A stretch of DNA of 11,698 bases from Planctomycetota bacterium. GTDB lineage: Bacteria > Planctomycetota > Planctomycetia > Pirellulales > UBA7805. How positions within the stretch are numbered: the first letter of the stretch is position 1; every line of letters begins with the position of its first letter. A model generated the notes under the pieces. The model saw nothing but the letters and a program-made list of their open reading frames with translations. It did not search any database and was not told the origin of the DNA. Positions 1-10,265 of this stretch are shown here, one piece after another. A program made the translations under genes and the position numbers. Where the stretch lies: contig JAUWIQ010000019.1 in NCBI GenBank assembly GCA_030605285.1, positions 1 to 11,698 on the forward strand, written 5' to 3'.

Positions 1-222
1 GATGACAAAAGTGAGCAGAAGTTCCGTAAGGCCTATAGCCAAATCAGGGATAGTGCCCAGGACTACGGAGTCAAATCGATGCCACTGACTGATTTACTCA
101 ACTATATGGGGTATACGGGTCGAGAGCACTCGGTTGGTCTTGGCAAACGAGCAAATGTGAAGGACTTTTCGCCTCGCAAAAAGAAGGATTCGTCGCCATT
201 TCGTCGGAGACCCTCGGGTTGA
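1..222 (+). CDS. C-terminal part of an unrecognised protein with basic tail
   Basis: The reading frame is open from base 1 and stops with TGA at 220-222. It gives the last 73 residues of a protein that begins upstream of the window. The visible part has a charged helical stretch (EQKFRKAYSQIRDSAQDYG), a short LLNYMGYTGRE segment, and a very basic, low-complexity tail (PRKKKDSSPFRRRPSG) that is probably disordered and could contact nucleic acid. I do not recognise the family. The frame appears in no overlapping competitor and ends before an intergenic gap, so it is probably a real gene end. The link to the downstream genes is unclear because 215 bases separate it from the next start. Confidence 0.6.
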   Translation, partial: DDKSEQKFRKAYSQIRDSAQDYGVKSMPLTDLLNYMGYTGREHSVGLGKRANVKDFSPRKKKDSSPFRRRPSG

Positions 223-437: not shown

Positions 438-707
438 ATGCAAGTCCCGATTGATGCGGTGGAATTGCTCGATCGCGAATACCTTACGATTCGCGCAAAA
501 ATCCTAGAGTTAGCGGCGACCTTTGATCGCATCGACCGGTCCCGCGGGGACGTTGCCAGAAGTCCGGAAATGATAGCGGTCCAGCAAGCTCTCGAGGTGC
601 TTCTCGCCAAGGAAGCCGATGCAGATCGCGCCGAGCGTATCCAACTAATCTTCTCGCGGCCTTATGCGAAGGAGTGGAAGAAGGAATTCGAGATGCCTTC
701 CGGGTAG
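438..707 (+). CDS. Small predicted all-helical protein of unknown function
   Basis: An 89-residue protein from an ATG preceded by AAAGGA 11 bases upstream; the same frame is open further upstream, but residues before this Met look non-coding. The sequence is rich in Leu, Ala, Glu and Arg, with alternating hydrophobic and charged residues (IDAVELLDREYLTIRAKILE; later AVQQALEVLLAKEADADRAE), suggesting two or three amphipathic helices. It ends in IFSRPYAKEWKKEFEMPSG. There are no Cys residues, no signal peptide and no membrane segment. I do not recognise a named family, although it has the look of a conserved planctomycete hypothetical. It lies 68 bases before the TatD-like gene on the same strand, so co-transcription is plausible. 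Function is unknown; a small cytosolic partner of the neighbouring enzymes is only a guess. Confidence 0.7.
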   Translation: MQVPIDAVELLDREYLTIRAKILELAATFDRIDRSRGDVARSPEMIAVQQALEVLLAKEADADRAERIQLIFSRPYAKEWKKEFEMPSG

Positions 708-775: not shown

Positions 776-1609
776 ATGTACTACCTTGATCCTCACATCC
801 ACATGGTCTCCCGAACCACGGATGATTACGAAACTTTGGCAAAGATGGGATGCGTTGGAGTGAGCGAGCCTGCTTTTTGGGCAGGTTTTGACCGTGGTAG
901 TATCGACGGTTTCAGAGACTACTTTTGCCAACTCACAGAATTCGAGCCCAAACGGGCGAGTTGGTACGGTATCGCACACTACACCTGGTTGTGTATCAAT
1001 GCGAAGGAGGCGGAGAATGTCAAACTCTCCCGAGAAGTAATTGCGATGATTCCGGAGTTCCTCGATCGGCCAGGCGTGCTAGGAATCGGCGAGATTGGTT
1101 TGAATAAAAATACAAGAAATGAGGCAACAATTTTCCTTGAGCATTTGGATTTAGCAGTTAAGACCAACGAACAAATTTTGATTCATACCCCACACCTGGA
1201 AGACAAATACCAGGGTACACGAATGATTTTGGATATGTTGTGTGATGATGCTCGCCTAGACCGTTCGCGAGTATGCGTGGACCACGTTGAGGAACACACA
1301 GCGCGACAAGTCCTGGAAGAGGGCTTTTGGGCGGGCATGACGTTGTATCCCGTGAGCAAATGTACGCCCGACCGCGCGGTTGATATTGTGGGGCGATATG
1401 GGCCGGAGAGGCTCCTTGTCAACTCGGCGGGCGACTGGGGCCCCTCGAAACCAACGGCAGTCCCCGATTTTATTCTGGCGATGCGGCTGCGGGGACATCC
1501 GGAAAGTTTGATTCGCCAGATCACTTACGAAAATCCGTTGGCATTCTTTAGCCAAAGCCGCAATTTCCGTTTTACGCCCCCCGAGCAACGTCAGACGAAC
1601 CGCGTTTGA
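776..1609 (+). CDS. eboB: TatD-family metal-dependent hydrolase, EboB-like
   Basis: A 277-residue TIM-barrel hydrolase of the TatD/amidohydrolase superfamily. All metal ligands expected of TatD are visible: H7 and H9 (DPHIHM), E106 (GIGEIGLN), H137 (LIHTPH), H170 (CVDHVEEHT) and D220 (NSAGDWGPS). Unlike TatD DNases, it carries SRTTDDYE and EPAFWAG after the HxH motif and NSAGDWGPSKPTAVP near the end. These are features I associate with the TatD-like protein of ebo gene clusters (EboB). I chose the ATG at 776 because it puts the HxH at the usual position; the frame extends upstream to 674 but that part overlaps the preceding gene. The Shine-Dalgarno is weak (GAGAG then a T-run). It converges on the eboF-like gene, so it is transcribed apart from the other ebo-like genes. 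Its substrate is not known; a small-molecule intermediate is more likely than DNA. Confidence 0.85.
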   Translation: MYYLDPHIHMVSRTTDDYETLAKMGCVGVSEPAFWAGFDRGSIDGFRDYFCQLTEFEPKRASWYGIAHYTWLCINAKEAENVKLSREVIAMIPEFLDRPGVLGIGEIGLNKNTRNEATIFLEHLDLAVKTNEQILIHTPHLEDKYQGTRMILDMLCDDARLDRSRVCVDHVEEHTARQVLEEGFWAGMTLYPVSKCTPDRAVDIVGRYGPERLLVNSAGDWGPSKPTAVPDFILAMRLRGHPESLIRQITYENPLAFFSQSRNFRFTPPEQRQTNRV

Positions 1610-1640
1610 GCAGCGCTCACAATCGCTTGTGGCCCCAACT

Positions 1641-1660
1641 GCCTCGAAGAGGATTGAGGC
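1641..1660. terminator. Hairpin between convergent genes, possible bidirectional terminator
   Basis: GCCTCGA (1641-1647) and TTGAGGC (1654-1660) can form a seven-pair stem with one G-U wobble and a six-base loop. It sits in the 68-base gap between two convergent stop codons, where a shared terminator is expected. Neither side is followed by a clear T-tract, so it may not be a classic intrinsic terminator. Confidence 0.35.
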
Positions 1661-1677
1661 GTCTGAAATCATGGTCG

Positions 1678-3015
1678 CTAATTGGCCACAAATTGCTTGA
1701 GGATCAGGTTGGTGACTTCATAGTCCCGTAGTGACTCGGCCTCGAGGACTCCCTCCTGAGAGGCAATCAGGGTGCCCTGCTGGAATGCAGCGGTGGCTGG
1801 CGCACCATGGGAGCCTTTGACGAGGGGGGCATCCAAGGGAATGCCACGAGTTGCACGATCGAAATGCAACTCCACGGGGTCGTACCCCGGTTTTTGATGG
1901 ATGTCCACAGTTCTAGCAAAGGGCGGGGCGCAGGAATCGTCAAGCCAGTAGTAGTACGCCTGCCAACTGTGGGGCTCGGAAATCAGGATCACCTCACCAC
2001 TCCGCTCGTGATGCAGCTGATATTTTTCGCGATCGGTCCCCGCGAGAACTTCGGCAATTCCCGGCATCCCCGTGAAGAGATCCACCACGCGGCGAATGGT
2101 GTCCGCAGAGGCGTCTTGTGTTGGCGATTCGGGATCCGCCACAAAAACGTGAGAAAACTGATGATCAACCAGAGCCCAGGCCTGACTTGCAGAAAAATCA
2201 AGCCATTCCCCTGAGTCTTCTCGAACTTTTAACAAGCCCGCCTCACGGAGTACCCGGTTGGGATAGGTTACGTGATCGACCGGTACGATCGTATACTCGC
2301 TGCCGACGAGCCAGAGAATGTCCTCCTCATAGGCGGCCCGCATCTTGGTTATAAAATCACCTAAAAGATGATCGAGTTGGACTGCTGCCTTGGCAGCTTC
2401 TTTGCTTTCCGGCCCGAATTTCTGGGCGGCATAATCAAGGTGTGGTAGATAGATGTAAAAAAAATCGGGTTGAAAGCGACTTGCCGCGGTTACTGCAGAT
2501 TCAGCGATCCACATTGAGGACTCGATTCCCGCAGTGGGCCCCCAGAAGTGCTGCAGTGGAAAATGCCCGTGGGCTTCGAGTAGTTCACCATAGAGTTCGG
2601 TTGGTTTCGTATAGCACCATAGCGATTCGGATCCATCAGGATTATGAATTGGTGCAGGCATACAAATGATATCAGCGCCACATCCCTTGCTGAGCATGGG
2701 AAACCAAACGGCAGTCGACTTTCCAAGTTTGCCGAGCAGATCCCAAAGCTGGGGCTTTTGGATGGTTTTGTTCCCGGCAGTCCACATTTCGACCTGATGG
2801 GAGTCACGCCAGTAGAAGCCGTTGGCCACGACACCATGTTGATATGGAAGGCAGCCACAGAGCAAGTTGCACTGCACGGGCCAAGTGACACAGGGAAAAC
2901 TTGGTACGAGTTTTACCTGCTCACCACATTTTGCCATGCTTTGGAGATTGGGCATGGTCGGCACGTCGGTGGACCGCAAACCTGGTATCGAGAGATAAAG
3001 GAGAGGGCAACTCAT
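1678..3015 (-). CDS. eboF: Alkaline-phosphatase-superfamily (nucleotide pyrophosphatase/phosphodiesterase-like) protein, EboF-like
   Basis: A 445-residue protein of the type I phosphodiesterase/nucleotide pyrophosphatase fold. The candidate nucleophile is T44 in the PCVTWPVQ motif, followed by [16 protein letters not shown], typical of this superfamily. Further landmarks are [14 protein letters not shown] (D194), [10 protein letters not shown] (238-247), [10 protein letters not shown] (H373) and KGSHGAP (H403). Several canonical metal ligands are replaced: the first Asp by P11 (IPGL for IDGL), a His by Q198, and the DH pair by E240-Y241. The same replacements occur, as far as I recall, in EboF-type proteins, so this is a lineage trait rather than decay. 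There is no signal peptide, hence probably cytosolic. Its ATG overlaps the TGA of the upstream ubiA-like gene (ATGA, 3012-3015), implying translational coupling. It is the last gene of the operon. The substrate is unknown. Confidence 0.82.
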
Positions 3016-3965
3016 GTCGAATAGATAAACCGTCCCAGAAAAAGAGTTGGGATCAGGAGGGCGAGTAGAAACAAGGCCTTGTCTTGACCCTGGACGGCAA
3101 ATATTACCGTTGCATCCAACACGATCAACGAGAGTAAGCAGGTCTTAACCGCAAACTGAACGCTCTCTGGCGCGGGCCGATAAATAGCACGGCCACACCG
3201 CCAGACAATCTGTAGGGCGATCAGTGACCAGAATGCATACCAGACATTGATTCCTGATGCGACAAGGGTTTCGTTCGAGGGGAGCAGGTTGGGAAACGAG
3301 GCAATCGCTGTAATTCCCAGCAGCATCACGAGCAGACTGGCAAGCAGGTGGCTGCGACGGCTCTCGACCGCCTCGGTTCGGGCAAACCAAGTAATCCCCA
3401 CGACATACATTCCGATCCCGCCGGCAACCAGATAATGAACAGTTTGCCATGACAGCGGTCCACCACCCGCGGCGGTCATGCCCATCAGTACGTTGAGCAT
3501 CCGGCAGAGACCCATCCCAATGGGGCCGAATGATGTTTTCTTGAAATACCCGTCATAGAAAATAACTGCGCCGGCCAAAAGGAATGCCGTCAGTCCGGTC
3601 AGGGGCGTTGCCGCGAAGAAACTAACAAGCCAGGCAAGGGCAACACCGAGGATGATAAACTCGCTTCCCATCCAGAGCGCTGCCGATTCCGGCACTCTCC
3701 GGGAGGGGATCGGTCGTGTGGGCCGTTCGCGCGTGTCTTTGCTGCGGTCGAAATAATCGTTGAGTACCATGCCTGCTAAATAGAGACAGCTTGTAGAGCA
3801 GACCAGCAGCAGCAGGATGCCTGTATTTGCAGGCGGTAGTTCCTTGCGTAGTGGGGACCAGGTGACGAACCAATATCCCATCATCACATCGGCTATTGCG
3901 GTAAAGACATTAGGCAACCGCAGAAGTTCAAGGTAGGCGCGAAGTGTTGATTCGGAACGAGGCAT
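3012..3965 (-). CDS. eboC: UbiA-family prenyltransferase-like membrane protein, EboC-like
   Basis: A 317-residue integral membrane protein with about eight to nine hydrophobic segments. The first Asp-rich motif of UbiA prenyltransferases is intact (NDYFDRSKD, residues 69-77), followed by [11 protein letters not shown], which binds the prenyl diphosphate via Mg2+. The second motif region ([19 protein letters not shown], from residue 137) is divergent from the usual DxxxD pattern, with a single Asp (D138). Such proteins transfer an isoprenoid chain to an aromatic or polar acceptor in the membrane. The EboC subgroup is called UbiA-like and its acceptor is not known. It starts five bases after the stop of the TIM-barrel gene, with an AGG overlapping that stop, and its own stop overlaps the next start. 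This is clear evidence of one operon. Assignment to EboC rather than another UbiA rests mainly on the neighbours. Confidence 0.83.
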
Positions 3966-3970
3966 GACAC

Positions 3971-4831
3971 CTATTTCAGGAGGATATCAAGCTGATTCAT
4001 GGACTCTCGCAGGTAGGCCTGCGCTTCTCGAGCCGCCTGATCTGGATTGTCGATGTACGGATAAAGTTCAACCGTGATCCAGCCGTCGTATCCGGTTTTG
4101 CTGATTTCACGCAAAGTGGCCGCAAAGTCGATCGCCCCATGTCCCGGGATGAGATGGGCGTGTACACGGGAAGCTGCGATATCCTCGAAGTGGTAGTGGC
4201 GTGTGTGCGTCTGCATCTTAGCAATCCAGTCCTGTGGGTCCTCGCCTACGCAATACGCATGCCCGATATCGAAGTTAAGTCCAACCCGCTTCGAGTCGAT
4301 CCGGTCAACAAATTCAAGATATTGGCCAAAGGTTTCGATCAGGAGTTCCGGTTCGGGCTCGATCAACAGATCGACCTGGAGCTGCTCGGCCAATTCGATA
4401 CAGGGCATCAATTCCTCATAAAAAATATCAGCGCCTTGTTGCCAGGACTGTTCCTGCGCGAGTAGTCCTCCCGGTTCGGTGGTGATGTTTCGGGCACCGA
4501 GGTCTGCGGCCAACTGCAAACACCGTTTTGTGTGTTCGCGACGAATGGCACGATAATGGGGGTCCGGGTCGGTCCAGCCAGGATGCCAGTACGGCTGTCG
4601 CGGATCGGCTACGGCATTCATCATGAAGGCATTGATGTTCGATATTGTCAGTTTGTACTGAGCAAGAGATTCTCTGATCGAATCTTTGCGCTCCTCAAGC
4701 AAACCCGCGGGCCAGGCATGGGGGACATCGGCAAGGATTTCGATACCGCTGTAACCGCAGTCGCCAATTCTGGCGATCGTCTCCTCGATGGAGAAGTGCA
4801 TGTAGGCGTTGCTACTAAAGGCAAGTTTCAT
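3971..4831 (-). CDS. Sugar phosphate isomerase/epimerase-like TIM-barrel protein
   Basis: A 286-residue protein of the xylose-isomerase-like (AP endonuclease 2) TIM-barrel family, which includes IolE and hydroxypyruvate isomerases. Metal ligands are recognisable: E158 or E160 (LLIEPEPE), D188 and H191 (FDIGHAYC), H214 (RHYHFEDI) and E255 (TVELYPY), plus PGHGAIDF. It starts with MKLAFSSNAY, a typical first strand. An upstream TTG at 4894 would add 21 unconserved residues but would bring the start within 12 bases of the previous gene, so the start is not certain. The preferred ATG has a poor Shine-Dalgarno. It lies between two permease genes and the ubiA-like gene. EboE of canonical ebo clusters is also a TIM-barrel protein but is longer and looks different to me, so this may be a functional stand-in rather than an orthologue. 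The substrate is unknown. Confidence 0.85.
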   Translation of the reverse strand: MKLAFSSNAYMHFSIEETIARIGDCGYSGIEILADVPHAWPAGLLEERKDSIRESLAQYKLTISNINAFMMNAVADPRQPYWHPGWTDPDPHYRAIRREHTKRCLQLAADLGARNITTEPGGLLAQEQSWQQGADIFYEELMPCIELAEQLQVDLLIEPEPELLIETFGQYLEFVDRIDSKRVGLNFDIGHAYCVGEDPQDWIAKMQTHTRHYHFEDIAASRVHAHLIPGHGAIDFAATLREISKTGYDGWITVELYPYIDNPDQAAREAQAYLRESMNQLDILLK

Positions 4832-4906
4832 GATTCGATAGGCGGGATGTCTTGGGAGAGGATATATCGTGCATGAATCATCAGCCGCTGGCAATCCCCG
4901 CTGAAT

Positions 4907-5806
4907 TCAACTACTAGCGCTGCGATAGCTCCGGAGGGCCCAGTAAAAGATTGCCCGAGAAGCCAGCAGGCTGGCGGCCGTGGCAAAGAGTGCAAAGATC
5001 GCCAGCATTTGATTGCTGGGGTCCAAAGGCTTGGCTAGCAGACGGGCAGGAACATTGACCGCAATCAAGACTGGAATCACATAGGAAAAAAACATTCTCA
5101 GAGATTCGCCGATCCAACGGCGAGCGCCACCGGGGGGACCGCTATAAATCTCCATTGGGTAGCGGGAAAAATTCGTAATATAGAACCAGAAATTGTAGAG
5201 GGACTGATTGCGTCCTAACCAGATGCTGGTCGAGGAAAGTGTAATCATCAGGCTGTAGAGTATCGCCACGCCACAGAGAACGTAAATCGGATAAACCAAT
5301 ATTTGAGATAGATGGAGCGTATTGCCCGGCTGCCCTTGGTGTAGTTTCGAGACAGAAAAGAACAGCAACACGATGGCAAAAACTGTGTTGCCCAGACTCG
5401 CCCAATTGACTTTTTGCAGGGACACAAGGAACTGGGTATCGATCGGCTTGAGGAGTGCGAAGTCAAGATTTCCAGTTCGAATAAGTTCACTAAATTCTTC
5501 CATGTTGGGCATAAAGAATGTCTGGACCAGGCTATTGATGATGGCAACGGTGGCAAAGAAGACCAGAAATTCGTATTGCGTCCATCCAGTGGCCACACCA
5601 ATCACATCGGTGTAAGTGAAAATCAGAAGGTAAAATCCTAAATTCATGAACATCCAAGAAAGGGAAGATACCACTTCGATCAGAAAATTAGATCGAAAAG
5701 TCATTTCGCGCACTAAGCTGTTGCGGGCAAAGGTTAGACCTACGCGCAGGTAGGAAGGCTGGCGGGATTGCTCGGGATTTGTTTTTGGAATAGGTGCTGA
5801 TGCCAT
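4907..5806 (-). CDS. ABC-2-type transporter permease (COG3694/COG4587-like), second subunit
   Basis: A 299-residue membrane protein with roughly six hydrophobic segments. The cytoplasmic signature IRTGNLDFALLKPIDTQFLV (109-128) and the later FSRYPMEIY (213-221) mark the paired permeases of the 'ABC-type uncharacterised transport system', Pfam ABC2_membrane_6 (DUF990). The N-terminus is short and polar with no signal peptide. An alternative TTG start at 5821 has an AAGG five bases upstream and adds only MKSIP, so either start is possible. It sits 29 bases (or 14 with TTG) after the first permease and ahead of the TIM-barrel gene. It should form a heterodimer with the other permease, powered by the ATPase encoded first in the operon. 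Family members are mostly predicted exporters; the cargo is unknown. Confidence 0.87.
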   Translation of the reverse strand: MASAPIPKTNPEQSRQPSYLRVGLTFARNSLVREMTFRSNFLIEVVSSLSWMFMNLGFYLLIFTYTDVIGVATGWTQYEFLVFFATVAIINSLVQTFFMPNMEEFSELIRTGNLDFALLKPIDTQFLVSLQKVNWASLGNTVFAIVLLFFSVSKLHQGQPGNTLHLSQILVYPIYVLCGVAILYSLMITLSSTSIWLGRNQSLYNFWFYITNFSRYPMEIYSGPPGGARRWIGESLRMFFSYVIPVLIAVNVPARLLAKPLDPSNQMLAIFALFATAASLLASRAIFYWALRSYRSASS

Positions 5807-5835
5807 AGGAATTGATTTCAATTTGCCTTAAGTCA

Positions 5836-6693
5836 CTAACCGCCAAATCCACTGTAAATTCTTACACCTCGATGAAACGCCAGACGACAGGTCATCATGA
5901 AAAAGGCGACCCAGGCGGCTTCGATCCAAAGGCCTCGAATGAGCTCATTGCCCTCTATTTTTCCCAGCCAGACTGCCGCCGGGAAATAGGCAAGGTATTG
6001 CAGTGGCGTGGCCTCGACAACAGAGTTCCAGGGAGCTGGCAGAATGTCGAGCGGAAACATATGTCCCGAGAAAAAGAAACTAAAGAGCATGTAGATAAAC
6101 AGTAGAGAACTGACTTCTAGGAACCAGAAGCCGATCAGCCCGATCGTAGCCTCTAGAAAGAAGCCCAATAAAAATGACAAAAACAGCGAGAATACGAAGG
6201 CCAAAATCGTTTCCCCATCGGGGGCCACTGGAAAAAATCCCCGGCAGAGGAAAAACACGATTGCGAAGGGTACGATGGCCACACCATAGTAGATTAATTT
6301 GTGGGCCACTCGGTTGAGCAGCAGAAATCCGATCATATCGATAGGCTGGATCAAGTATTTTTTTATCGTGCCATTGCGTATTTCAGTTGCGATACCGGAG
6401 GCAAGTCCCGGCATACTGGAAAATGCTCGAGTGACCATGGTGAGCAGGTAGTAGGCAATGAAGTCGTGATAACTGTATCCCGCAATCTTTCCTGAAACGG
6501 TTTCGAAAATAGTGCCCCAGAGAAAAATCTGAGTGACGATGGGAAGAAATCGCATCAACGTCCCGAGCGCAAAATCCCCCCGATAGACGAGTCTCTCTTC
6601 AAGGCATATCCGCAAGATCGTCCACCACGTTGCCAGCTTGGTTTGTAGTATGTGGGCTCGCGTGGGAGTCTTCGTAAATTGTGTCAGCGTCAT
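5836..6693 (-). CDS. ABC-2-type transporter permease, first subunit
   Basis: A 285-residue membrane protein with about six hydrophobic segments, including long ones near 133-151, 162-190 and 194-214. It carries the matching signature of the partner permease family ([16 protein letters not shown], 104-119) and the ending [16 protein letters not shown], where a basic stretch and RxYxGxG-type tail are common in this group. The ATG at 6693 is preceded by no evident Shine-Dalgarno (GGCATCTTGGGTC). A gap of 138 bases separates it from the ATPase gene and holds a terminator-like hairpin, so its expression may be attenuated relative to the ATPase. With the second permease and the ATPase it makes a complete three-gene ABC transporter in the inner membrane. 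Confidence 0.88.
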
Positions 6694-6779
6694 GACCCAA
6701 GATGCCTTTTTTCGCGAGAAGTCGACTTGGACTCGTTGCGGAATCTTTCTGCGGGATCAGAATGGTCGGATTGCAAAGG

Positions 6780-6820
6780 TTACAAAAAGCAACGCGGTTT
6801 TAAAAAGGGGATGCACCGCG
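6780..6820 (-). terminator. Terminator-like hairpin between ATPase and permease genes
   Basis: On the minus strand CGCGGT (6820 to 6815) and ACCGCG (6798 to 6793) form a six-pair GC-rich stem with a 16-base loop, followed at once by TTGCTTTTTG. It could act as a weak intrinsic terminator or attenuator inside the operon, or as an mRNA stability element. The large loop and interrupted T-run lower confidence. Confidence 0.35.
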
Positions 6821-6831
6821 AATTCGCAAAT

Positions 6832-7848
6832 TTACTTGGCTGCCCTAGACGCATTTTGATCGGCAATGTTCTTTTCGGCAATGGAAAACATTTCAGCAAT
6901 CGCCTCTTCCAGAGGGGGGTCTTCAACGCTGACATCCTGGATTGGATGTTTTTGCAAAATTGCGGCAAGGACATCTGTCACCACACCTCGATCAATCCGT
7001 AATTTCGCACGCGGATTTTCAAGTTGGAGTACTTCGCCATAACGCTCCAAGTCAGGGGGAAGAGTGTCTTCCGCAAACAGGAGCGTTACGATTTTATGTT
7101 TACTGAAGCGATCAACAATCTCTGCCAGCGAACCATCATGTACGATACACCCTTGGGCAATAATCACGACCCGTTTGCAGAGGGCCACAACGTCCTTCAT
7201 GTAATGGCTGGTCAAGAGGATCGTAATTTTTCGCAGTTGCTGGTAGTAGCGGAGAAAGTTCTGGATATTATGTTGCGCTATCACATCGAGCCCAATCGTT
7301 GGTTCGTCCAGAAACAAGACCTCCGGCGAATGCAGCATGGCAGCAATCAATTCCATTTTCATACGTTCGCCCAGTGATAGTTCGCGGACGGGTTGACCCA
7401 ACAGCGACCCGACTGAGAGTAGATCCACAAGTTCGTCACGAGTCTTATTGAAGGTCGCCAGCTCAATCTGATAAATCTGCTGGTGCAGTCGAAAGGATTC
7501 TTGGGCCGGCAAATCCCACCAGAGTTGGTTTTTCTGTCCCATCACGAGGGCAAACCGGCGTCGGAACGCATTTTCTCGTTGCCAGGGGACATGCCCCAAA
7601 ACGTGGGCCGTGCCGCGGGTTGGATTGATCACACCCGAGAGCAGTTTGAGCGTGGTGGTCTTACCGGCACCGTTCGGGCCCAGGAACGCCACAAACTCTC
7701 CCTGGCCGACGCTTAGACTGATTCCCCGCACCGCCTCGACCTGCCGGTATTCGCGTGAAAACAAGCCGCGCACTGATGCGAGCAACCCCTCTTTTTTTTG
7801 GTAGATACGGTATGTCTTGGTGAGTTGCTCGATTTCAATCGTTTGCAT
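6832..7848 (-). CDS. ABC transporter ATP-binding protein (COG4586-like)
   Basis: A 338-residue nucleotide-binding subunit. The Walker A motif is GPNGAGKT (57-64), Q-loop Q105 ([10 protein letters not shown]), signature [11 protein letters not shown] (157-167, variant of LSGGQ, usual for this subfamily), Walker B EVLFLDEP with catalytic E182, and H-loop H215 (LTSHYM). The segment between the first strand and Walker A is extended ([20 protein letters not shown]), typical of ATPases that pair with two ABC2_membrane_6 permeases. A C-terminal domain of about 90 residues ends in [14 protein letters not shown], a common end for ABC-2 exporter ATPases. It is the first gene of the minus-strand operon. 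The ATG has a TATAAT only eight bases upstream and no Shine-Dalgarno, which suggests a leaderless transcript. It powers transport of an unknown substrate, most likely outward. Confidence 0.92.
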
Positions 7849-8499: not shown

Positions 8500-10265
8500 T
8501 GAAAGCTACCACCAGCGATACCCAAGTTGCGGCCGATGAGCAGATCGCAAGTTCCATTCGGATATACAACACGCTCACGCGACGGAAAGAACTCCTGCAG
8601 CCGGTAGTGCCTGGCAAGGTGGGTATTTATCTTTGTGGCCCCACGGTCTACGACAAAGCGCATATCGGCCATATGGTTGGACCCGTAATCTTCGATACGA
8701 TCAAACGTTATTTATCCTACAGCGGATACGAAGTCACCTGGGTGGTCAATATTACCGATGTGGATGACAAATTGATCAATAAGGCAGCGGAGCGATCTCT
8801 TTCGATGGCCGAAGTGGCAGAAGAAAATATTGCCGATTACATGCTAAATCTGGAGGGAATGGGAGTTGATCTTATCGATCAAATGCCCCGGGCGACCGAG
8901 AGCATGGGCGATATTATCAAGATGACAGAGTCTCTGATCGATCAAGGCTATGCCTATGAAGTGGAGGGCGATGTATTTTTTGATGTTGGGCGCGATGCGA
9001 ACTATGGCAAGTTGACCAATCGAACTGTGGAGGGACTGCAGGGTGAAGGGGGTGGGGCTGCAGCCAAGAAACGATCCGCTGCTGATTTTGCTCTCTGGAA
9101 GTCCGCGAAACCAGAGGAACCCTCTTGGGAGAGTCCCTGGGGTCCGGGCCGCCCGGGATGGCATATCGAGTGTTCGGCAATGAGTCGAGGTCTGTTAGGT
9201 GAAACATTTGATATTCATGGCGGTGGAATCGATTTGATTTTTCCGCATCACGAAAATGAGATTGCTCAGAGCGAGTGTTGTCATGGTAAGCCGATGGCAA
9301 AAATCTGGATGCACAATGGACTGTTACGGGCGGCGGCCACAACAGGCAAGATAGGTGGTCGCAATGATCGGGAAGATTCCTCGTCCGCGGGTGGAGAAAA
9401 GATGAGCCGTTCCAAGGGGGCCGGTGGACTGGCCGACCTGATTGCGAGGCAGGGGGGTGAGCGGATCCGATTTTTCCTGCTGCGGACTCACTACCGTAGC
9501 ACGGTCTTGTTCGGCGAAGCAGCGATCGAAGAGGCCGCGGCAGGTTTGGAAACCTTCTATCGGCTCTTTAAACGTTATGAGCGAATTATGAGCACGAGTT
9601 TTTATGATGTGCAAGCGGCCAATTTGCGGGATAAGGGGGCCCTCGAGGCGTCGGAAAGCATGGCCGAGGTGGTGGAGATCCGCAAGCAATTCCTGTCTTC
9701 CATGGACGACGATTTCAACACCGGCGGGGCTGTAGGCAGCCTTTTTGAAATGGTGCGGTTATTGAATAAATGTATCGATGACGGCCAACTCGAATCTCCC
9801 AGCGATCGTGACGAGAAATCGCTGACAGTTCTCGAGCAGGGAATCTCCACGTTGCGGGAGTTGTGTCTCACGTTGGGACTTTTTATCAGTCCACCCGCAA
9901 GCAGTGGCGAAAGCGAAATCTCGGAATTCCTCGACGGTGTGATGCAATTGGTGATTCAGTTGCGATCTGCAGCACGGGGGAAAAAGGATTTTGTGACGGC
10001 CGATCGGATACGTGATGGTCTCGGACAACTGAAAATTTCAGTGGAAGATCGGGCGGATGAAACCGATTGGAATCTCGATGACCAGGGGGATAATCCAGAA
10101 ACTGCGCTCGATGGATTGATGCAGCTGCTGATTGAGTTGCGAAAAGCCGCGCGAGTCCAAAAGGATTTTGCGACAGCCGACGCAATTCGTGATGCGCTAG
10201 CGGCTCTCCAAATTACTCTGGAAGATCGTGCCGAAGGGACGGACTGGACTGTTACATCCCAGTAA
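8499..10265 (+). CDS. cysS: Cysteinyl-tRNA synthetase with duplicated C-terminal module
   Basis: A 588-residue class I aminoacyl-tRNA synthetase that charges tRNA-Cys, well above the usual length of about 460. The HIGH motif is H55-H58 (KAHIGHMVGP) and the KMSKS loop is KMSRS (301-305). The zinc ligands are C46 (YLCGPTVYD), C225 (HIECSAMS), H250 and E254 (PHHENE). Two additions explain the length. One is a Gly/Ser/Arg-rich insertion of about 19 residues just before KMSRS (within 275-300). The other is a tandem duplication of the C-terminal helical module (478-526 and 537-585). The ATG at 8499 overlaps the ispF stop (TGATG) and has AGAAGGGA upstream; an earlier frame start at 8472 lies inside ispF and adds nothing conserved. 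All catalytic motifs are intact, so it should be the functional enzyme. Confidence 0.95.
   Translation: MKATTSDTQVAADEQIASSIRIYNTLTRRKELLQPVVPGKVGIYLCGPTVYDKAHIGHMVGPVIFDTIKRYLSYSGYEVTWVVNITDVDDKLINKAAERSLSMAEVAEENIADYMLNLEGMGVDLIDQMPRATESMGDIIKMTESLIDQGYAYEVEGDVFFDVGRDANYGKLTNRTVEGLQGEGGGAAAKKRSAADFALWKSAKPEEPSWESPWGPGRPGWHIECSAMSRGLLGETFDIHGGGIDLIFPHHENEIAQSECCHGKPMAKIWMHNGLLRAAATTGKIGGRNDREDSSSAGGEKMSRSKGAGGLADLIARQGGERIRFFLLRTHYRSTVLFGEAAIEEAAAGLETFYRLFKRYERIMSTSFYDVQAANLRDKGALEASESMAEVVEIRKQFLSSMDDDFNTGGAVGSLFEMVRLLNKCIDDGQLESPSDRDEKSLTVLEQGISTLRELCLTLGLFISPPASSGESEISEFLDGVMQLVIQLRSAARGKKDFVTADRIRDGLGQLKISVEDRADETDWNLDDQGDNPETALDGLMQLLIELRKAARVQKDFATADAIRDALAALQITLEDRAEGTDWTVTSQ
9930..10253 (+). 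repeat. Tandem protein-coding repeat in cysS
   Basis: Two 147-base units, 9930-10076 and 10107-10253, begin 177 bases (59 codons) apart. By hand alignment the 49-residue products agree at 31 positions, with shared landmarks LDG, LR.AAR, KDF.TAD.IRD, and EDRA..TDW. The DNA has diverged at many synonymous sites, so the duplication is old and both copies have been kept under protein-level selection. A 10-residue acidic linker (DDQGDNPETA) joins them. Confidence 0.85.

Follow-up and report, generated by a model that had tools for sequence, protein, structure and literature searches.

The 11,698-nucleotide stretch analysed here (hereafter the window; contig JAUWIQ010000019.1 of the planctomycete assembly GCA_030605285.1) encodes EboB, EboC and EboF of the ebo gene set, a short EboG homologue, a xylose-isomerase-like TIM barrel and an ABC-2 transporter (Table 1). 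The ATPase, two permeases (PermA and PermB), the barrel, EboC and EboF form, in this order, a co-directional run of six genes, to which eboB is convergent. There is a 4-base overlap between EboC and EboF, the barrel and EboC are separated by 5 bases, and 75 bases lie between PermB, for which ATG 5806 is the more likely start, and the barrel. The same gene order was seen again in relatives, so the arrangement is more than chance. We read the window as encoding the greater part of a variant, EboG-type ebo pathway for a prenyl-cyclitol in a Pirellulales-like planctomycete, with the cyclase EboD probably located elsewhere in the genome, and assign this reading a probability of roughly 0.6.

Table 1. 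Genes of the ebo locus and the adjoining transporter in the window.
Gene	Product or assignment	Position	Strand	Basis
eboG	EboG homologue, 89 aa, directly upstream of eboB	438..707	+	Profile and BLASTP homology, position
eboB	TatD-like metallo-hydrolase, EboG type	776..1609	+	Identity to reference EboB, tree; PF01026 (TatD), 31.7 bits (weak)
eboF	Alkaline-phosphatase-superfamily phosphodiesterase/pyrophosphatase	1678..3015	-	PF01663, 135.8 bits; identity to references, motifs
eboC	UbiA-superfamily prenyltransferase	3012..3965	-	NF035940, SCO3242 model, motifs, tree; PF01040 (UbiA), 66.6 bits
TIM barrel	Xylose-isomerase-like, ketose-3-epimerase fold, in EboE's place	3971..4831	-	PF01261, 146.1 bits; AlphaFold2 model
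PermB	ABC-2 permease B, lineage-specific neighbour	4907..5806	-	PF06182, 132.2 bits
PermA	ABC-2 permease A, lineage-specific neighbour	5836..6693	-	PF06182, 71.4 bits; survey, tree
ATPase	ABC ATPase, DrrA-like, lineage-specific neighbour	6832..7848	-	TIGR01188; PF00005, 88.1 bits

An original prediction, made from the sequence alone, had proposed EboB, EboC and EboF here. The open reading frames (ORFs) are intact and their Pfam scores agree with the superfamilies it named, and the three ebo identities are borne out by profile scores, identity to references, shared motifs and the EboB and EboC trees. Among NCBIfam models, EboC (NF035940) was the best match of the UbiA-superfamily protein with 202 bits (cut-off 250), followed by the SCO3242 model with 150 bits and the next model with 63 bits, and the protein shares motifs with reference EboC. 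In an EboC tree of 73 rows, several of them on long branches, the window, the planctomycete rows and ebo references from Aureibacter, Azospirillum, Deinococcus and a deltaproteobacterium split from archaeal proteins resembling digeranylgeranylglyceryl phosphate synthase (DGGGPS) with support of 100/99, and the window protein thus groups with the ebo references. The UbiA proteins of Streptomyces and Halobaculum and those of two thaumarchaeal-titled loci also fell on the ebo side. With six reference EboF proteins, the window EboF shares 33-41% identity as well as motifs. Its residue 9 (window positions 2989-2991) is Ser in the window and near kin and Asn or Asp in reference EboF; it aligns with the Asp of the first motif (L-D-x-x-G-L), which we take to be the metal-site Asp of the alkaline phosphatase (AP) superfamily, and the site may be altered throughout EboF.

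The 89-residue gene upstream of eboB, which the original prediction had missed, is likewise part of the ebo set. EboG was described as a short protein taking the place of EboA in Deinococcus and others (PMC5133447), the only source using the name in the ebo sense among the matches listed in our literature search. A profile (A1) of the window protein and 14 relatives matched the EboG-position genes of two Deinococcus plasmid clusters (L176 and L177; 52.9 and 44.6 bits) and, with 53.3 bits, an ORF of Gemmatirosa in the corresponding position, and BLASTP with the window protein alone gave E-values, computed for a small sequence set, of 2.7e-6 and 1.9e-4 for Deinococcus and 2.9e-10 for Gemmatirosa. 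In the Deinococcus clusters the short gene is flanked by eboD and eboB and is annotated 'hypothetical protein'; we call it EboG because of this position and the statement on Deinococcus in PMC5133447. Altogether, 2323 database proteins matched A1 at E 0.01 or better, and a Pfam domain was found in none of the best 120 of these 2323. The AlphaFold2 model of the window EboG is helical (predicted local distance difference test score, pLDDT, 88.9), and a fold search with it returned zero PDB matches (best E 2.1).

EboG adjoins EboB in all ten relatives' loci that carry a window-type EboB, and EboB was also present in each of the 11 EboC-centred regions with EboG. Among 20 EboG loci picked away from EboC, EboB lies downstream in six, always with EboG first, and these EboB proteins are 50-79% identical to that of the window; among 20 EboA loci, 16 have EboB downstream in the same orientation, with identities of 41-44%. 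Because EboA and EboG both sit upstream of EboB, we regard them as positional equivalents, as proposed previously (PMC5133447), and in the window, where EboA was neither annotated nor scored, EboG fills the shared slot. The window EboB, for which the weak TatD match agrees with weak matches reported for EboB (PMC5133447), shares 57-61% identity with its Deinococcus and Gemmatirosa counterparts, compared with 42-47% for those from EboA-type clusters and Halobaculum. The EboB tree groups the window protein and a further 26 planctomycete rows with both Deinococcus rows (100/99), and EboA-type rows, including those of two planctomycete/deltaproteobacterial EboA-bearing genomes, lie on the opposite side.

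In the place of EboE, the window encodes a different TIM barrel. It scored 29.9 bits on the EboE model NF035939 (cut-off 250) and higher on sugar-epimerase models, in all cases under their cut-offs. A divergent EboE was rejected beyond superfamily relationship on the basis of this score and of the 16.9 bits of EboE_Str against the barrel profile. The isomerase-like TIM barrel of the original prediction is upheld by its PF01261 score, and of the profile searches suggested there, that for EboC returned the expected family as best model, under its cut-off, and that for EboE did not. The AlphaFold2 model of the barrel (pLDDT 89.1) matches ketose 3-epimerases, with PDB entry 3wqo as best match (template modelling score 0.83), and E158, D188, H214 and E255, presumably the metal site of the IolI/tagatose-epimerase family, are invariant across 27 rows. 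Among annotated ebo-like clusters, the best match was a Halobaculum barrel next to UbiA (43% identity), and a Nitrosotenuis-titled locus encodes a barrel with 49% identity beside EboB, EboC and EboF. Relatives often have a further barrel paralogue immediately after EboC (100-123 bits on the window-barrel profile; for example L120 10398-11240, L131 10398-11234 and L165 10451-11284), which is missing in the window, and Halobaculum also encodes two barrels.

The distribution of these genes was surveyed in 218 genomes from the class of G001, the genome containing the closest relative locus (L001; EboC 78% and EboB 92% identical to those of the window). EboC was detected in 216 genomes at E 1e-20, including 207 at 1e-40 or better, with every score under the curated cut-off, and only G131 and G180 lacked a match; the scattered occurrence originally assumed for ebo genes does not apply to this class. 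EboE exceeded its cut-off in 91 genomes, 109 had only a low-scoring match to the EboE model, which was the barrel wherever checked, and no genome had both. Consistently, a window-type barrel is present in 23 of 60 EboC-centred regions, with EboE in none of the 23 genomes, and of the 37 remaining regions, 34 belong to genomes with EboE and three (G148, G110 and G188) to genomes with a barrel-type match elsewhere. EboA was over its cut-off in 33 genomes, all among the 91 with EboE, and EboG was detected in 179 at E 0.01; exactly one of the two was found in 212 genomes and both in none. For these counts, EboA matches under the cut-off (G136 and G206, 22.0 and 22.7 bits), second weak matches in G027, G057 and G096, and the second piece of the G169 EboE match were dropped.

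No cyclase was identified among the ORFs of the window. In eight of the 12 genomes carrying an EboC locus of the window type (G001-G007 and G015), an EboD-clade cyclase is encoded at a separate locus and groups with EboD of a full cluster (tree support 99/100), and EboD was not found in G008-G011. Inositol-3-phosphate synthase (MIPS, PF07994) yielded zero matches in G001 and G005, the two of the 12 genomes searched for it. From these relatives, EboD is probably encoded elsewhere in the genome of the window. Second PF01761 matches in L075, L076 and L077 lie outside the EboD clade on long branches and were excluded as EboD. The cluster had been called partial, which holds with regard to EboD and does not hold for the EboA and EboE slots, occupied by EboG and the different barrel.

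Across the class sample, the EboD query matched at E 1e-56 or better in 57 genomes (G231 in two pieces), separated by a gap from AroB-like matches at 1e-35 or worse, and MIPS was found in 150 genomes. Exactly one of the two cyclases was present in 205 genomes and both in one (G086), counts that retain a weak match to MIPS in G198 (E 1.5e-6). Of 105 genomes for which the positions of both MIPS and EboC are listed, 41 have the two genes no more than 5 kb apart (in six of the 105 they are on different contigs), either directly adjacent or with a barrel in between, and in eight loci among those listed MIPS is 43-47% identical to the MIPS of Streptomyces or Halobaculum. An isoprenoid-cyclitol ebo product and a cyclitol-containing lipid carrier were proposed previously (PMC5133447 and PMC6282210, respectively), and the exchange of EboD for MIPS, which was not described in the literature searched, supports the cyclitol idea. 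A link between ebo and inositol was likewise not found in that literature, and inositol is not mentioned in the four papers listed. On a 60-member EboC tree, the observed patterns require six changes each for EboD/MIPS and EboE and five for EboA, of which five, four and three, respectively, are forced by well-supported branches alone. The replacements thus happened several times, as judged from a gene tree rather than a species tree; Fisher values for the one-or-other patterns ignore kinship.

These patterns bear on whether the UbiA, barrel and AP proteins could instead be housekeeping components of an unrelated pathway, such as quinone or archaeal-type lipid synthesis, with ebo resemblance and exclusivity arising as lineage effects. 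EboC is nearly universal in the class and scores under the EboC cut-off, its sole PDB match at E <0.01 is digeranylgeranylglyceryl phosphate synthase, and the one-or-other patterns are clustered on the tree. However, four independent partners (EboA/EboG, EboB, EboE/barrel and EboD/MIPS) recur around EboC, which groups with ebo references apart from the archaeal DGGGPS-like proteins, and the swaps need several independent changes, which makes such a housekeeping role quite improbable. More broadly, and with somewhat less than even confidence, we propose that ebo constitutes a core lipid pathway of the whole planctomycete class, with fixed EboB, EboC and EboF-type hydrolase, three exchangeable slots (EboA/EboG, EboE/ketose-epimerase barrel and EboD/MIPS), and a prenylated inositol-like cyclitol as product. 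If true, the EboD/MIPS swap would reveal the nature of the ebo product and unite the clusters of bacteria, plastids and haloarchaea as a single pathway; a near-universal class pathway with the characterised MIPS in place of the uncharacterised EboD would point to the ebo chemistry, an open question since the naming of these genes in 2016. The survey also corrects the picture of planctomycete ebo genes as few and unclustered, which was drawn from three species (PMC5133447).

Alternatively, the barrel might catalyze a step different from that of EboE, which would have been lost independently, and MIPS might lead to a different product, so that two pathways would share EboB, EboC and EboF. The superfamily-level relationship of barrel and EboE and the presence of both in Streptomyces point in this direction, and MIPS and EboD would make different cyclitols. 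Yet EboE and a barrel match never occur together in the 218 planctomycetes, and either cyclase is found with either barrel type (EboD in 38 and MIPS in 48 of the 91 EboE genomes; EboD in 14 and MIPS in 91 of the 109 barrel genomes). We therefore consider two separate pathways possible, although not the likelier explanation of the data.

The ATPase (200.9 bits on TIGR01188, cut-off 312) and the two permeases in one run make up an ABC-2 exporter; PermA had zero PDB sequence matches at E 1. The original prediction regarded this exporter as dedicated to the ebo product, within a self-contained module that modifies and exports a small molecule. Its suggested neighbourhood survey supports the linkage throughout the lineage of the window, where the ABC genes lie beside EboC/EboF in L004-L006, L008, L009, L011 and L016 and beyond EboF in L010; in L001, L007 and L012 the contig end truncates them, L002 and L003 end before the ABC position, and the genes are not in the available DNA of L013-L015 and L017-L019. 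L003 and L004 are two contigs of the same TMED10 assembly with identical EboC regions, probably an assembly duplicate. Linkage also occurs on several branches of the PermA tree, and CPS-type ABC permease genes were reported just upstream of the Pseudomonas EDB/ebo cluster (PMC6282210). Across the class, however, the linkage is not kept: PermA was detected in 178 of the 218 genomes (three with two matches), yet ABC permeases are present in just three of the 60 EboC-centred regions. Among 20 PermA-centred regions chosen for PermA not near a listed EboC, five lack ebo genes and have cysS diverging from the ABC genes (one with ispF, by eye), and only L190 is linked to EboC and EboF. Furthermore, PermA was not found in G036, G044, G052, G064 and G084, all with EboC on contigs of 6.6-10.1 Mb, and both genomes without EboC encode PermA. 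The PermA tree mixes 13 linked and 19 unlinked rows, requires three changes and shows linkage scattered across its Pirellulales-like part. Survey, regions and tree together identify the transporter as one orthologous unit with ispF-cysS as old neighbour and a lineage-bound ebo link. An exporter reserved for the ebo product, and with it a self-contained module, is thus unlikely; the transporter is probably not dedicated to ebo, although a functional link within this lineage is possible.

In the EboG-type ebo pathway favoured here, we infer the reactions from protein families. A cyclase (EboD, or MIPS in other planctomycetes) would generate a cyclitol or cyclitol phosphate, which the barrel (or EboE) may epimerise or isomerise, before the membrane protein EboC would couple it to a prenyl chain. 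EboF would hydrolyse a phosphate ester or diester, and EboB, together with EboG (or EboA) as a small helical partner, could carry out a hydrolytic step. Almost every member of the class would make the putative product, a prenyl-cyclitol residing in the membrane, and the ABC-2 transporter, a separate widespread planctomycete unit linked to ebo in this lineage, may or may not move it. Several observations weigh against this interpretation. None of these proteins has a known enzyme activity, and Ubi-297, the one tested relative of EboC, farnesylates an aromatic quinoline acid in vitro (PMC9235831). The window EboC is 48 bits under the NCBIfam cut-off, below which all EboC matches of the class sample also fall, and a close EboF (>=48% identity) was found in about 53 of the 218 genomes, the best match of the others being a homologue of about 40% identity that is uncertain as EboF. 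Neither barrel type was found in 18 genomes, neither EboA nor EboG in six and neither cyclase in 12, in a sample for which completeness is not given and in which EboB was outside the class-wide survey. MIPS may serve ordinary inositol metabolism, and barrel and EboE are not exclusive everywhere, since Streptomyces encodes both, with a barrel 27% identical to that of the window.

To the right of the six-gene run, candidate ispF, cysS, ruvC and ruvA genes, read from the sequence, lie on the opposite strand. The C-terminus of CysS (window positions ~9939-10265) consists, by eye, of two near-identical stretches of ~50 aa (DGxMQLxIxLRxAAR...DFxTADxIRD...), apparently a tandem duplication, and the C-terminal part of a (+)-strand ORF enters from the left end (window positions 1-222). 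Rfam yielded zero matches at gathering scores in the window. An uninformative promoter scan detected two promoter-like sites (6.9 expected) and 14 terminator-like sites (9.2 expected), with none between PermB and the barrel.

With the canonical eboA-F operon of eustigmatophyte plastids, Bacteroidetes and Cyanobacteria (PMC5133447, PMC6282210), in which each of five ebo genes was required in Nostoc for delivery of the scytonemin monomer to the periplasm (PMC6282210), the window shares homologues of EboB, EboC and EboF and the logic of cyclase, UbiA and AP-type hydrolase. It differs in encoding EboG for EboA and a different barrel for EboE, in lacking EboD within the window, and in its arrangement on two strands with ABC-2 genes alongside. 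Like the window, the Deinococcus plasmid clusters have eboG directly upstream of eboB, with EboB 57-59% identical, whereas their single operon also includes EboD and canonical EboE, and ABC genes are absent from the stretch shown. The SCO3242-type cluster on a Streptomyces plasmid (L180; MIPS-SCO3242-barrel-EboA-EboB-EboE-EboF, with no EboD within the stretch shown) also encodes UbiA, EboB, EboF and a barrel, but differs in the presence of MIPS, EboA and EboE and in its distant barrel. This MIPS-type cluster adjoins a gene annotated as ScyD/ScyE family (L180 2880-4079), names known from scytonemin synthesis. The Halobaculum salinum plasmid cluster (L181), arranged as EboF-MIPS and EboB-barrel-UbiA-barrel2 with no EboD within the stretch shown, shares EboB, the barrel, UbiA and EboF with the window, and is set apart by its MIPS cyclase, its second barrel, the absence of a detected EboG and the trehalose genes nearby.

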